This document shows positions 15,612 to 21,349 of a stretch of 64,000 nucleotides of DNA, in pieces. Source of the stretch: Actinomadura sp. J1-007 (GTDB taxonomy: Bacteria > Actinomycetota > Actinomycetes > Streptosporangiales > Streptosporangiaceae); contig NZ_WING01000001.1 in NCBI RefSeq assembly GCF_009793335.1, positions 682,001 through 746,000 of the forward strand. Direction: 5' to 3'. The notes below the pieces were generated by a model that was given only the letters and a program-made list of their open reading frames with translations, was not told the origin of the DNA and made no database searches. Positions within the stretch are counted from its first letter, which is position 1, and each line of letters opens with the position of its first letter. The position numbers and the translations under genes were made by a program.

Positions 15612-17138
15612 TCAGCGGGCGAACTCGATGGCGCGGGACTCGCGGACGACGGTGACGCGGATCTGGCCCGGATAGGTCAGCTCGTCCTCGACCTGCTTGG
15701 CGATGTCGCGGGCGATGACCTGGGCCTGGATGTCGTCGACGGAGTCCGGCTTGACCATGACGCGGATCTCGCGGCCGGCCTGCATGGCGAAGACCTTCTC
15801 CACGCCCTCGTGCTTGTCGCGGGCGATCTCCTCCAGCCGTTCGAGCCGCTTGACGTACGCCTCCAGCGACTCGCGGCGCGCTCCCGGCCGGCTGCCGCTG
15901 ATCGCGTCGGCCGCCTGGGTGAGGACGGCCTCGACCGTGCGGACCTCGACCTCGTTGTGGTGCGCCTCGATGGCGTGCACGACGTCCTCGTCCTCGCCGT
16001 ACCGCCGTGCGATCTCCGCGCCGATCAGCGCGTGGCTGCCCTCGACCTCGTGGGTGAGCGCCTTGCCGATGTCGTGCAGCAGCGTGCACCGCTTGGCGAT
16101 CTCGACGGGCAGCCGCAGCTCGCTCGCCATGACGCCCGCGATGTGCGCCGACTCGATCAGGTGCATGAGCACGTTCTGGCCGTACGAGGTGCGGTAGCGG
16201 AGCTGGCCGAGCAGCGCGATCAGCTCGGGGTGCATGTCGGTGATGCCGACCTCCACGAGCGCGTCCTCCCCCGCGCGCACGCAAAGCTGCTCCACGTCCG
16301 ACCGGCTGCGGTCGTAGACCTCCTCGATCCGCTGCGGATGGATCCGGCCGTCCAGAACGAGCTTTTCCAGGGTGAGCCGTCCGACCTCCCTGCGAACGGG
16401 GTCGAAACAGCTCAGCAGCACCGCCTCGGGGGTGTCGTCGATGATGAGGTTGACGCCGGTCGTGGACTCGAACGCGCGGATGTTGCGTCCCTCGCGCCCG
16501 ATGATGCGGCCCTTCATCTCGTCGCTCGGCAGGTGCAGCACCGACACGACCGACTCGGCCGTCTGCTCGCTGGCGACCCGCTGGATGGCGAGCGTCACGA
16601 TCTTGCGGGCGCGCTTCTCGCCCTCGGCCCGCGCCGCGTTCTCGATCTCCCTGGTCAGCGGGATGGCCTCGCGCTTGGCCTGGTTCTCGATCGCGGCGAC
16701 CAGCTCGCTCTTGGCCTGCTCGGCGGTCAGCCCGGCGGCGCGTTCGAGGACCTGCCGCCGCTCGTCGTCCAGGCGCCCAAGTTCCTGCTTGCGGGACTCC
16801 AGGCCGCGCTTGCTCTCGGAGAGGCGCCCCGACCACTCCTCCAGCCGCCGCACCTCGCCGTCGAGGCGCTGCTCCCGCTCCGCGAGGCGGCTCTCGCGGC
16901 GTTCCAGGTCCTCGCGCATGGTCCGGAGGTCCTCGCGTGCGGCGCGGGCCTCCTCCTCAAGCTCGGCGCGGGCGGCGTTCGCGATCTCCTGGGCCTGCTT
17001 CTCGGCGCGTTCGAGGATCTCCTGCGCCTCGGCCTCCGCCGCGGCGGCGCGGCCGAGACCCCCGGGTCGGCGCAGCAGCACGATCACGAGAGCGACCAGG
17101 GTCACCAGCAGTGCTGCACCCAGCAGGACGCTCTCCAT
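15612..17138 (-). CDS. rny: ribonuclease Y
   Basis: Membrane-anchored endoribonuclease that starts mRNA decay. The 508-residue protein has the full layout: one N-terminal transmembrane helix (about 4-22), a long charged coiled coil (about 30-190), a KH domain with GRIIGREGRNIRAFE, and an HD domain with LLHDIGKAL. Its C-terminus reads TVVRESRAIEFAR, typical of the family. Length and start agree with the family. It lies on the same strand downstream of recA-recX, separated by an 800-base gap, so it probably has its own promoter. Confidence 0.95.
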   Translation of the reverse strand: MESVLLGAALLVTLVALVIVLLRRPGGLGRAAAAEAEAQEILERAEKQAQEIANAARAELEEEARAAREDLRTMREDLERRESRLAEREQRLDGEVRRLEEWSGRLSESKRGLESRKQELGRLDDERRQVLERAAGLTAEQAKSELVAAIENQAKREAIPLTREIENAARAEGEKRARKIVTLAIQRVASEQTAESVVSVLHLPSDEMKGRIIGREGRNIRAFESTTGVNLIIDDTPEAVLLSCFDPVRREVGRLTLEKLVLDGRIHPQRIEEVYDRSRSDVEQLCVRAGEDALVEVGITDMHPELIALLGQLRYRTSYGQNVLMHLIESAHIAGVMASELRLPVEIAKRCTLLHDIGKALTHEVEGSHALIGAEIARRYGEDEDVVHAIEAHHNEVEVRTVEAVLTQAADAISGSRPGARRESLEAYVKRLERLEEIARDKHEGVEKVFAMQAGREIRVMVKPDSVDDIQAQVIARDIAKQVEDELTYPGQIRVTVVRESRAIEFAR

Positions 17139-17955
17139 GAGGCAGATCCTTCCTCGCCCACGGACCCCGTGATCGGAGCCCTGCCTCGCGAGGATTTACC
17201 CGCACCCGCCCGGGCGGCCGGGTACACGGAATCCCCGAGCCGCCGATCGCGACCCGGTGACTCGGCCGAAAACGGCCAAGGACGTGTCCTCTATGCCTCT
17301 CAACTGCTCGAACGTGATCAGTCGTATCGCAATCCGCGGTGCGCGGAGTAACTCCTCACTGCCGTAACGGTAAGCGGCATGGAGGTAATGAGCAAGCAAA
17401 CCCCGGGCATTCCGGACTAACCGAACGCCCGCGTGAGGAGTGCCTTACCGTCCCCCGGCCTGCCCCGAGCCACCGCCGACCTGCCCCGTCACGGCCCGCC
17501 CGTGTCAGGAAAGGGTCAGCGCACCGTCAGGGACCACCGCGCCTCCCCGGCGTGTCGTTCCCGGACCGAAACCCCACCCCACCCAACGCCCCAATCCCCC
17601 GTTCTCCCACACCACGCCCTCCCCGCACCAGCCCCCGTAGTCCCACCACTCCTAGCCCCACCTCGCCGACATCTCCCGCACCCGTCGCCCCCGCCCGTAC
17701 CCGCCCGGCGGGTGCCGAGCGGCAGCAATGGTGGGGTCAGACGTTCGTTGACGGACGATCCCTCGCGGGCGTTCGTTGGCAGACGCCGGTCAGCGGCGTC
17801 CACTGGTGGGCGTTCGCGCGGCGTCGGAGTAGCGGACGGCAACAGGTGCGCAGGGCACGCGGACGGTTGTTCTGCGGTTGGGACGGGCGAACGCCAGGAG
17901 GAGGGGAAGAACGAGTGCTGGAGCAAGAAGCGGGCCGCGCTCTTCCCCGCTCGGT
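17139..17955. other. 817-base gap between recX and rny
   Basis: I find no recognisable gene here. Reading frames longer than 60 codons exist on both strands but look like low-complexity, unconserved translations. The part at 17570-17690 is strongly C-rich on the plus strand. A perfect 7-bp hairpin (GACGCCG 17782-17788 with CGGCGTC 17794-17800) and a small GGCCG-AAAA-CGGCC hairpin (17264-17277) are present. The promoter of rny should lie at the low-coordinate end. Confidence 0.45.
17572..17600 (-). other. G-quadruplex motif on the minus strand
   Basis: Read on the minus strand this segment has five runs of three to five G separated by one to four bases, matching the usual G3+N1-7 pattern. It lies about 360 bases past the end of recX, in the recX-rny gap, and would be in the recX transcript if that reads through. 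Confidence 0.6.
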
Positions 17956-19893
17956 TCAGTCCATATCGGGGTCTTCGGCGAACTCGTCGACGTCGGCGCC
18001 CTCTTCCGCGAGCGCCTCCTTGACGACGCGGTAGGCGAGGCCGGGCGAGTAGCCCTTGCGGGCGAGCACGCCGACCAGGCGGCGCATCCTCTTCGCCGGA
18101 TCAACTCCCCGCGTGGCCCTCAGTTTCCGGGCGATGAGGTCCCTGGCGGCCTGCTCCTCATCCTCCGGCGTGACCTCCTCGACGGCGTCGTTCACCGTCT
18201 CGGCGTCGACGCCACGGCGACGGAGCTCGCTGGCGAGCGCACGCTTGGCCAGTCCGCGTCCCGCCTGGCGGGTCCGCACCCAAGCCTGGGCGAACGCGAC
18301 GTCATCAATGAGCCCCACATCGGTGAACCGTCCAAGGACCCCCTCAGCCACATCGTCCGGGATCTCCTTGCGTCGCAACGCGTCGGCGAGCTGAGCACGC
18401 GTACGAGGCGACGATGCAAGGAGCCGCAAGCAAATCTCTCGCGCCGCGGACTCCGGATCGGCGGGCGGCCCCTTCTTCGCGTTCCCGTCCCGCCGCCCCC
18501 TCTTCCGGCCGCCCCGACTCTCTTCCCAAGGATTGTCGGAGCCGCCCCCAAAAGCCTTCTTCCGCCCGCCACCGCGCCCAGATGCGCCCCTCCGCCCACC
18601 TGCGGCAGCCGCCCCACCTGCGCCCCGCTCCGGGCCTACCTCCTCCGCGAGCACATCCGAGCCGCCCTGCCCGCCCGGGACCCACCGTTCCCCCGGGCCT
18701 CCCTGCCCGTCCGAACGCGTTCGCGCGTCCGACTCCGCCTGCCCGTCTGGAGCCGACCGCATATCCGAGACAGCCTGAACCCTCCGGCGTGACCGCCCAC
18801 CACCCGGGGCTGTCTGAACGTCTGGAGCCGTCTGATCACTCGGGGTTGGCTGCCGGTCGGAGTTGGCCTGAACGTTCGTGACGGGCTGCGGGTTCGAGGA
18901 CGGCTGGTCGTTCGGCGGCTGGCTCCCGGGGCCGGGCTGCTTGGCGGGCTGCTTGGCGGGCTGCTTGGCGGGCTGCTTGGCGGGCTGGGACGCGGTCTTC
19001 TCACCGAGGACGGGGCGCGTCCTGTCGGCGGCTGTGAGGTCGGCCGTGCTTGGGGGCACGGCACTTGGGTCATCCCGCCGGTCGCTCGCTTTGGACGCGG
19101 CAGGGCCGGGCCTGGTCCGCGGGTTCTCCTCGGTAGGGGCTGGGGGCTTCGCGGCAGGCCCGCGTTCGGAACGGCCGGGATTCTGGCCTTCCTGCTCGGT
19201 CGTCCACGGGTTGGTCCCGGTGATCGCCCAGGGCACGGCGCCGGACGCGTGCGGGAGCGTGGGAGCGACCGCGCCGTTCTCGTCGGAAGGCTCCGCCTCG
19301 TTCTCGCTTGAGCCTGGTACTGGCTCGTCGACACGCTTCCGAGCGAAGTCTTGAACGGCAGCCGCGCCGGCCTCGGGAGCAGAGTCGTTATCGACGGTGC
19401 TGTCGGGCTGGGCGACGGTGGCCCCGGCGGTGGGGTTGAGATGTGAGGCAGGCCCCGTTCCGGCAGCGGGGCCGGGCTGAGGGGTGAGGCCGGCAGCGGG
19501 GCCGGGCTGAGGGGTGAGGCTGGCAGCGGGGTCGGGCTTGGTGGTGGGGCCGGCACCAGGGGTGGGGCGTGAGGCTGGGGCTGGGGCTGCGCCAGAGTCG
19601 GGGGGTGGTTCGAGGGCCGCCTCGGGCTCGGGAGCTGGGTTGAGCTCCGGAGTTGGGTCGAGCCCCGAAGTTGGGTCGGGCTCGGGCTCCGGAGTTGGGT
19701 CGGGCTCAGGCTTGGAGTCCTGCTCGGTGGCGGGGGCAGGGGCGCGTGAGGGGAGGGTGGGTGGCGGGGGGACGGGGGTGGGCTCTTCGGTGAGCCATGG
19801 GTTGGACTCGGGGGTGGCCCAGGGGACGGGTTTGGGTGGGGTCGGTTCGTCCCAGGGGTTTCGGGGCGCCTCGTCCTCGGGTGGGCGGGTCAT
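17956..19893 (-). CDS. recX: RecX regulatory protein with long disordered N-terminal extension
   Basis: RecX binds RecA filaments and limits recombinase activity. The conserved RecX fold is confined to about residues 478-640 (for example RTRAQLADALRRKEIP and VGLIDDVAFAQAWVRTRQ). In front lies a stop-free extension of some 470 residues, rich in Pro, Ala, Gln and acidic residues. NPW occurs at residues 12-14, 31-33, 228-230 and 454-456. Two of these sit in the longer repeat PWA-x(4)-NPW-x-TE. AKQP is repeated four times (encoded at 18934-18981) and PQPGPAAG twice. Typical RecX proteins are 150-270 residues. A start nearer the core is possible, but the frame stays open and the motif repeats suggest real coding. 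It follows recA by 178 bases. Confidence 0.85.
   Translation of the reverse strand: MTRPPEDEAPRNPWDEPTPPKPVPWATPESNPWLTEEPTPVPPPPTLPSRAPAPATEQDSKPEPDPTPEPEPDPTSGLDPTPELNPAPEPEAALEPPPDSGAAPAPASRPTPGAGPTTKPDPAASLTPQPGPAAGLTPQPGPAAGTGPASHLNPTAGATVAQPDSTVDNDSAPEAGAAAVQDFARKRVDEPVPGSSENEAEPSDENGAVAPTLPHASGAVPWAITGTNPWTTEQEGQNPGRSERGPAAKPPAPTEENPRTRPGPAASKASDRRDDPSAVPPSTADLTAADRTRPVLGEKTASQPAKQPAKQPAKQPAKQPGPGSQPPNDQPSSNPQPVTNVQANSDRQPTPSDQTAPDVQTAPGGGRSRRRVQAVSDMRSAPDGQAESDARTRSDGQGGPGERWVPGGQGGSDVLAEEVGPERGAGGAAAAGGRRGASGRGGGRKKAFGGGSDNPWEESRGGRKRGRRDGNAKKGPPADPESAAREICLRLLASSPRTRAQLADALRRKEIPDDVAEGVLGRFTDVGLIDDVAFAQAWVRTRQAGRGLAKRALASELRRRGVDAETVNDAVEEVTPEDEEQAARDLIARKLRATRGVDPAKRMRRLVGVLARKGYSPGLAYRVVKEALAEEGADVDEFAEDPDMD
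18934..18987 (-). repeat. 12-bp tandem repeat inside recX
   Basis: GGGCTGCTTGGC is repeated four times perfectly (18934-18981) plus a half copy. On the coding strand it encodes AKQP repeats in the RecX extension. Confidence 0.9.
19461..19520 (-). repeat. 30-bp tandem duplication inside recX
   Basis: Two identical 30-base units (19461-19490 and 19491-19520) and a degenerate third copy from 19521. They encode the duplicated PQPGPAAG segment of the RecX extension. Confidence 0.85.
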
Positions 19894-20071
19894 GCGGGGG
19901 CACCCGGAGCGCTGAGCCCGGCGGGGTCAGCGGCCGGGCCCTCGGGAGCGGCGGCGCCATCGGGGAAGGTCCGCGCACCGGCGAGCCGGTGCCGGGTAAG
20001 GCGCCGCCGCCCTACATACGAGATCATCGCCCACACTTCGTCAAGAGTCACCCGGATTGGCAGATTCCTTG

Positions 20072-21211
20072 TCAGGAATCACCCGGCTTGGAGCCCCTGG
20101 CGCTCTTCTTGACGGGCATCGGGGGCTTGGGGGCCGGAGTGGCCTGGGGCTTGGCGGGCTCGGCGTCGGCCGCGGGCTTGGTCCCGTCGGCGGCGGGCTC
20201 GGCCTCCTTGTCGACCTTCGGGCCGACGCCCAGCTTCTCCTTGATCTTCTTCTCGATCTCGTCGGCCATGTCGGGGTTGGCCTTGAGGAAGTTGCGGGCG
20301 TTCTCCTTGCCCTGGCCGAGCTGGTCGCCGTCGTAGGTGTACCAGGCGCCGGACTTGCGGACGAAGCCGTTCTCCACGCCGAGGTCGATCAGGCCGCCCT
20401 CGCGGCTGATGCCGATGCCGTAGAGCAGGTCGAAGTCGGCGACGCGGAACGGCGGCGCCATCTTGTTCTTGACGACCTTGACGCGGACGCGGTTGCCCAC
20501 GGCCTCGGTGCCGTCCTTGAGGGTCTCGATGCGGCGGACGTCGAGGCGGACGGAGGCGTAGAACTTCAGCGCGCGCCCGCCCGTGGTGGTCTCGGGCGAC
20601 CCGAACATGACGCCGACCTTCTCGCGGAGCTGGTTGATGAACAGCGCGGTGGTCTTGGTCTGGTTGATCGCGCCGGTGAGCTTGCGCAGCGCCTGGGACA
20701 TCAGGCGTGCCTGGAGGCCGACGTGGCTGTCGCCCATCTCGCCCTCGATCTCGGCGCGGGGGACGAGCGCGGCGACCGAGTCGATGACCACGATGTCGAT
20801 CGCGCCGGAGCGGATCAGCATGTCGGTGATCTCCAGCGCCTGCTCGCCGGTGTCGGGCTGGGAGACCAGCAGGGCGTCGATGTCGACGCCGAGCTTGCCG
20901 GCGTACTCGGGGTCGAGCGCGTGCTCGGCGTCGACGAACGCGGCGATGCCGCCCTTCTTCTGGACGCTGGCGACCGCGTGGAGCGCGATCGAGGTCTTGC
21001 CCGAGCCCTCGGGGCCGTAGACCTCGACGACGCGGCCGCGCGGGAGGCCGCCGATGCCGAGGGCGATGTCGAGGGCGATCGCGCCCGTCGGGATCACCTC
21101 GACCGGGGCGCGCGCCTCCTCGCCCATCCGCATGACCGAGCCCTTGCCGAACTGCCGCTCGATCTGCGCGAGGGCGGTTTCGAGAGCCTTCTCCCGGTCG
21201 TTCGCTGCCAT
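20072..21211 (-). CDS. recA: recombinase RecA
   Basis: RecA forms filaments on single-stranded DNA, drives strand exchange and triggers LexA cleavage. The 379-residue protein has Walker A GPEGSGKT (66-73), the [11 protein letters not shown] region and the usual acidic/Lys-Pro-rich C-terminal tail. The start is the ATG of [11 protein letters not shown], preceded by AAGGG at six bases; the frame is open 41 codons further upstream but crosses the promoter. An SOS box lies about 140 bases upstream. recX follows on the same strand. Confidence 0.97.
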
Positions 21212-21317
21212 GACGTGCCCTTGTCTTCCTGTCGTGAGTGCCGGCTCTCGGCCGCCTTGCGATGTCGAGGGCGACGTTACGGGGAGCCACCGACAGTTCT
21301 CGAGACCCCGGCGCAAC

Positions 21318-21326
21318 TGTGGATAA
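21318..21326 (-). other. consensus DnaA box in the recA leader
   Basis: The minus strand reads TTATCCACA, a perfect match to the DnaA-box consensus, about 107 bases before the recA start and just downstream of the SOS box. A single box may be chance. Confidence 0.45.
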
Positions 21327-21349
21327 CGTCGCATGCCGCGCCCAGCTTA

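Follow-up and report, generated by a model that had tools for sequence, protein, structure and literature searches.

A RecX protein of Actinomadura with a long, predicted disordered N-terminal extension and recurring tryptophan motifs

RecX is known as a compact protein that negatively regulates RecA filaments. Its gene is usually, although not universally, found next to recA. In the window analyzed here, a 64,000-nucleotide stretch of DNA from Actinomadura sp. J1-007, the recX frame (17956..19893, minus strand) begins with ATG and encodes 645 amino acids. The recA gene (20072..21334, minus strand) lies upstream on the same strand, with 178 bases between its end at 20072 and the recX start, and an RNase Y gene (15612-17138) lies downstream of recX. 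The 10.3 Mb genome contains a single RecX_HTH1 match, and it groups at genus level with genomes whose recX cores are equal to those of named Actinomadura loci.

Analysis of the 645-residue protein with Pfam placed RecX_HTH1, RecX_HTH2 and RecX_HTH3 at residues 484-522, 530-570 and 578-624, all above the cut-off, with no other Pfam match. An AlphaFold2 model built from 27 related RecX sequences contained nine helices at residues 480-630, most with pLDDT 93-97; together with the Pfam matches these define the RecX fold (18004..18456, minus strand; coordinates computed from residue numbers). The solved RecX proteins 3d5l, 3e3v and 3dfg matched the protein with E values from 3.3e-11 to 2.7e-07 over a span of at most residues 478-629. 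With three tandem three-helix bundles, a sequence relation to solved RecX proteins and an adjacent recA, the protein is by its sequence a member of the RecX family, from which RecA-filament binding and modulation are presumed. The bundles account for 151 of the 645 residues, in agreement with the original prediction that the fold occupies the last quarter of the frame.

The remaining N-terminal part, residues 1-479 (18457..19893, minus strand), is predicted to be unstructured: AlphaFold2 assigned it no secondary structure, and its pLDDT block means ranged from 36 to 66. Tandem arrays make up 323 of the 1443 nucleotides of this extension. They include an array with a period of 30 bases (10 amino acids, TPQPGPAAG type; 3.2 copies, 89% matches; 19460..19555, minus strand) and an AKQP array with a period of 12 bases (4.6 copies, 100% matches; 18933..18987, minus strand). 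The earlier observation of a long, repeat-bearing N-terminus, disordered by prediction, is confirmed, and the arrays support the reading that the AKQP and PQPGPAAG repeats arose by recent tandem duplication of DNA. Arrays are frequent in relatives too: among 76 extensions of at least 80 amino acids, 54 contain them, and they cover 19.5% of extension bases compared with 1.0% of core bases. The length of the spacer thus turns over by tandem duplication.

Translation of the frame confirmed four NPW tripeptides, starting at residues 12, 31, 228 and 454 and all within the extension, two of them inside the predicted PWA-x4-NPW-x-TE context. NPW 1 (residues 12-14; 19852..19860, minus strand) is followed by a first paired-tryptophan module, PWATPESNPWLTE (residues 24-36; 19786..19824, minus strand), which contains NPW 2 (19795-19803). 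A second module, PWAITGTNPWTTE (residues 221-233; 19195..19233, minus strand), contains NPW 3 (19204-19212), and NPW 4 (residues 454-456; 18526..18534, minus strand) stands approximately 25 residues ahead of the RecX fold. The four recX NPW sites are the only matches to AAYCCNTGG in the window (shuffle mean 1.73), but this count alone is not striking, because four matches were reached in 7 of 100 shuffles. In the complete genome, a DNA pattern for PW-x5-NPW matched twice, both times in recX (reversed control pattern, 0), and a pattern for NPWxTE matched three times, twice in recX. PW-x5-NPW as a general motif of the proteome was rejected, the exact spacing being absent outside recX in this genome.

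Whether the extension is translated was examined through its upstream leader, its divergence and its repeat periods. An alignment of 46 leaders revealed a conserved segment (19947..20074, minus strand, including the recA stop codon) that is followed directly by candidate recX start codons in short forms (MTAARESDPEARARE and others) and in long ones alike; the long extension therefore seems to be an expansion within the N-terminus. Across 11 close pairs of extensions, 340 of 2017 first codon positions, 309 of 2009 second positions and 516 of 2012 third positions differed. First and second positions thus change at 15-17% compared with 26% at the third, which was the highest in 10 of the 11 pairs, and constraint on the extension is weaker than on the core. 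Array periods were divisible by three in 188 of 192 cases. Among 23 long Actinomadura-type extensions, NPW was found 24 times in the coding frame, never in the two other forward frames and once in the three antisense frames. Taken together, leader and start position, codon-position divergence, array periods and the restriction of NPW to the coding frame all point to translation of the extension.

The contrary explanation is that translation of RecX begins internally, near residue 470, and that the long frame is untranslated. A short product would be workable, as many relatives have a RecX that begins a few codons ahead of the fold (for example L062 and L069). Some relatives carry a long gap with no open frame (L032, L037, L042). 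The frame restriction of NPW, the third-position excess and the array periods in threes all speak against it, as do the position of the leader directly before the full-length start and the synonymous variation, next to likely start codons, of the related motif DWGAWPD described below. We consider an internal start very improbable and rejected it; the full-length frame of the original prediction is upheld.

The leader itself is strongly conserved across the genus (GGGTGACTCTTGACGA...GCGATGATCTCGTATGCAGGGCGGCGGCGCC and a GC-rich hairpin), regardless of extension length. As a structured RNA it is a weak candidate: just one of 18 predicted pairs changed on both sides, and the single-sequence fold gave a z of -1.9. 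Since covariation is weak, the segment could be a promoter, an attenuator or another element; a search for a sigma-70-type promoter found none. The sole Rfam match in the region, RAGATH-31 at window positions 17897-17953 (plus strand) just downstream of recX, scored 24.6 bits, far below its threshold of 71.8, and is probably due to chance. At Streptomyces-type loci (L099, L224, L226, L228, L229) the recX start lies one codon past the recA stop and the two genes share a reading frame, such that read-through of the stop codon would yield a RecA-RecX fusion.

The distribution of NPW in relatives was compared with shuffled sequences. The 24 NPW of the 23 long extensions compare with 0.27 expected (shuffle mean; maximum 2 in 1000), and these extensions also contained 39 [NDST]PW (5.5 by shuffling) and 8 PW-x5-NPW (0 by shuffling). 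The count of 24 takes the first ATG as the start, which shortens L034, L133 and L144; with GTG permitted, the 23 extensions hold 29 NPW, and NPW is present in 15, [NDST]PW in 20, the paired module in 14 and [NSGD]PF in 10 of them. NPW is absent from 8 of the 23 and [NDST]PW from 3. Shuffles ignore shared ancestry, and the use of 11 hand-picked clade representatives reduces this effect of kinship but does not remove it; this set contained 20 NPW compared with 0.17 (maximum 3 of 2000 shuffles) and 10 paired modules compared with 0.18 (maximum 2). On the basis of these shuffles, we rejected the idea that NPW arises by chance or from composition. A second motif, [NSG]PF(A/G)(H/D)L, replaces or joins NPW in L060, L149, L144, L049 and L143; its [NSG]PF core occurred 20 times in the 23 long extensions compared with 2.2 by shuffling.

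Across 65 genomes of the genus, PW-x5-NPW matched 37 times in 30 genomes (reversed control pattern, 8). Ten of these matches, from 9 genomes, lie in the recX extension; as the extensions make up a very small fraction of the genomes, this is a strong concentration. Inspection by eye of 22 of the 27 matches outside recX (five without a locus were left out) placed all but one in doubtful frames; the exception, L163, is a folded-looking protein. In 13 aligned pairs of extensions, with an overall identity of 0.21-0.57, tryptophan was the most conserved residue (identical at 0.64 of positions, a value to which alignment scoring contributes in part). NPW thus occurs in a predicted disordered setting, recurs above composition and is retained while its surroundings change. 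This behavior is that of a selected short motif, as had been proposed, given the enrichment in long extensions and the confinement of PW-x5-NPW to recX in its own genome.

The extension is dispensable in many relatives and has been repeatedly gained or lost. A RecX match was present in 63 of 65 genomes of the genus, and on a midpoint-rooted tree of the 60 rows for which RecA and RecX were both available, an extension of at least 100 residues was present in 20 and absent in 40 (L043 was scored manually as short, as its frame looked non-coding, and L079 fell below the 100-residue cut). This distribution requires a minimum of 6 changes of state, of which 4 are forced by well-supported branches. 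Several deep branches are long (Thermomonospora echinospora, L142 and the pair L063 and L065), making loss from a long ancestor plausible; a midpoint-rooted tree does not give the direction. With 40 of 60 rows lacking a long extension, its function is not essential. The expectation that homologues keep a trace of NPW accordingly holds for most long extensions, in the proportions given above, and fails for these 40 rows.

Six Actinomadura loci (L032, L037, L042, L043, L066, L147) have recA-recX gaps of approximately 510-970 bases. In five of these gap loci that were inspected, a set that leaves out the twin of L043 and that of L147 (L029), stop codons interrupted the recX frame along part of the gap, and no NPW was seen. 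No tRNA genes were found in the long gaps of 8 loci. The long-gap loci are possibly decayed extensions or inserted DNA. Two further RecX matches (G047:C88:34151-34615 and G138:C9:72757-73239) contain one TGA in frame, which is either a sequencing error or a sign of a broken gene.

Long tails are also common in other genera of the family, as seen in 40 loci selected among the 242 genomes that gave a match; the initial 20 of these loci were picked for long frames. Over 131 loci the median extension was 117 amino acids and the largest 773, although these loci were chosen and are not a fair sample. Tryptophan pairs recur near the N-terminus of these proteins as DWGAW, as DW[NT]SGPW in Microbispora and as WSNTW or WNDTW in Embleya and Yinghuangia. 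The pattern [DEG]W-x(2-5)-W was found within the first 70 residues of 30 of 64 extensions of at least 60 amino acids outside the Actinomadura long set (shuffle mean 1.9, maximum 7). In a set of 76 extensions, tryptophan pairs were present in 45 (shuffle mean 12.2, maximum 22), a count that includes at least three (L079, L138, L145) from DNA upstream of the likely start. A DNA pattern for DWGAWPD matched once in each of 22 of 200 family genomes, representing 8 of 68 genera. Twenty of the 22 matches were in recX, 19 in the recX frame and one assigned through L187, a longer locus from the same genome. Of the other two, one lay in a frame of 97 residues and one in a 784-residue frame that encodes another protein. 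Its codons vary synonymously at Gly (GGN), Ala (GCC/GCA), Pro (CCN) and the last Asp (GAC/GAT).

A wider comparison revealed that RecX begins with TRRTDWxEY in Streptomyces mutabilis (L099). Of six loci from one other family, three (L224, L226, L228) have the same beginning and the other three are partly similar (TRRTEW, WRTDWAES, TRRSDWPEY). No such tryptophan pair was seen by eye in the remaining 20 loci of the class-wide draw (L230-L249). Position and letters suggest homology among these tryptophan motifs, and the PW-x(3-9)-NPW modules look like the local Actinomadura form of an N-terminal tryptophan pair. The earlier reading knew of no described RecX with this architecture, and no matching description was found in the titles and abstracts of the open-licence papers searched. 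The architecture is not unique to this gene: long tryptophan-bearing extensions exist in other genera of the family, and the unit to be explained becomes the tryptophan pair near the N-terminus.

We propose that the recX product would combine the RecX fold with a translated, intrinsically disordered N-terminal tether of variable length, and that the tether would bear one or more paired-tryptophan modules (here the two modules together with two single NPW) serving as short linear docking motifs. With the C-terminal fold acting on RecA, the tether would dock a partner. The likeliest partner would be RecA itself, on neighboring protomers, or some other protein located at single-stranded DNA; docking would raise the local concentration of RecX or set its targeting. 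Expansion and shrinkage of the spacer between motifs and fold by tandem duplication would leave the motifs conserved and the length not. RecA or a single-stranded-DNA protein is favored as partner because this is where RecX is established to act (PMC9252578). When RecA and RecX were folded as one read-through chain with a shallow alignment, RecA had pLDDT of approximately 30 over residues 195-286 and the tail less than 50, so that docking on RecA is unsupported by this model, and a crude scan identified no RecA column that tracked the long or short state. That a disordered tether presents paired-tryptophan motifs to a defined partner is a reading we hold with belief and doubt in about equal measure. 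The signs of translation, the predicted disorder, the motif enrichment, the specificity of the exact motifs for recX and the repeated gain or loss are computed results; the docking, the partner and the effect on RecA are inferred from them.

Part of the same evidence could be explained by tolerated ballast, in which slippage-prone GC-rich DNA and a relaxed N-terminus allow neutral changes of length and the motifs are inherited leftovers. The repeated changes of state on the tree (at least 6, with 4 forced), the arrays in 54 of 76 extensions and the weak constraint at first and second codon positions are all in keeping with this. Ballast does not account for the letters of NPW and DWGAWPD being kept while the remainder turns over, for the conservation of tryptophan above overall identity or for the recurrence of an N-terminal pair in several genera, and we regard it as unlikely. 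Alternatively, the tryptophans may be stickers in a Pro/Ala/Gly-rich spacer, giving weak self-association or contact with single-stranded DNA and forming RecX condensates at repair sites with no specific partner. Tryptophan number, spacing and flanks do differ greatly, some relatives have 14-25 tryptophans and no NPW, and [NSGD]PF stands instead of or beside NPW in 10 of 23 long extensions. Against this, the recurring letters (NPW, PW-x5-NPW, DWGAWPD) exceed the specificity that a sticker needs, and several extensions have just one pair, close to the N-terminus; we judge this explanation improbable as well. A docking tether is the reading we prefer to either.

In its broadest and more tentative form, which we put forward with more reservation than conviction, the proposal is that the N-terminal paired-tryptophan motif (DWGAWPD, DW[NT]SGPW, PW-x5-NPW and perhaps TRRTDWxEY in Streptomyces) may be an undescribed docking signal for a hub of RecA control. 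Streptosporangiales and Streptomyces-like actinomycetes would employ it, some lineages carrying several copies on long tethers and others having lost it, and RecX in these organisms would be a multivalent adaptor rather than a compact filament inhibitor. If the tail does dock a partner, it would add an evolvable layer of recombination control in a whole group of actinomycetes, and the tryptophan pair would be a ready bait for finding that partner. The long and short forms within one genus provide a natural system for the gain and loss of a motif-bearing tether on a constant enzyme.

The architecture is common to many relatives and dispensable in others. No description of it was found in the titles and abstracts of open-licence papers, and in this literature the phrase 'NPW motif' was found for human CD8 beta only. 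Short aromatic motifs with proline or acidic neighbors that dock partners from disordered tails are known from the SSB C-terminal tail and from eukaryotic NPF and DPW motifs. The SSB motif is acidic-hydrophobic, lies at the very C-terminus and needs a free C-terminus; in contrast, the four NPW described here are internal (residues 12-456 of 645), and membership of that class is not claimed.

Among RecX proteins, the Mycobacterium tuberculosis type shares with the present protein the RecX fold and the position downstream of recA (PMC3527212). The 15 actinobacterial orthologues analyzed in that account have 171-188 residues compared with 645 here, of which 479 form the extension, a description of size and not a criterion of the family (PMC3527212). 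Bacillus subtilis RecX (264 residues) is larger than the proteobacterial form and is, like the present protein, a modulator of RecA; it is set apart by description and not by sequence, as the account of it in the same source includes no motif-bearing disordered tail (PMC3527212). Arabidopsis RecX (382 residues) likewise has a C-terminal RecX fold behind an N-terminal part of unknown function. This part is described as including a mitochondrial signal, by prediction, together with a domain to which no function is assigned, unlike the extension studied here, and the comparison is one of descriptions (PMC6963530). A functional analogue, for which no homology is claimed, is the noncatalytic region of gamma-proteobacterial RNase E, where disordered sequence carries conserved short partner-binding microdomains on a conserved enzyme; as portrayed in that source, the RNase E region is C-terminal and has known partners, whereas the extension of RecX is N-terminal (PMC4435900).
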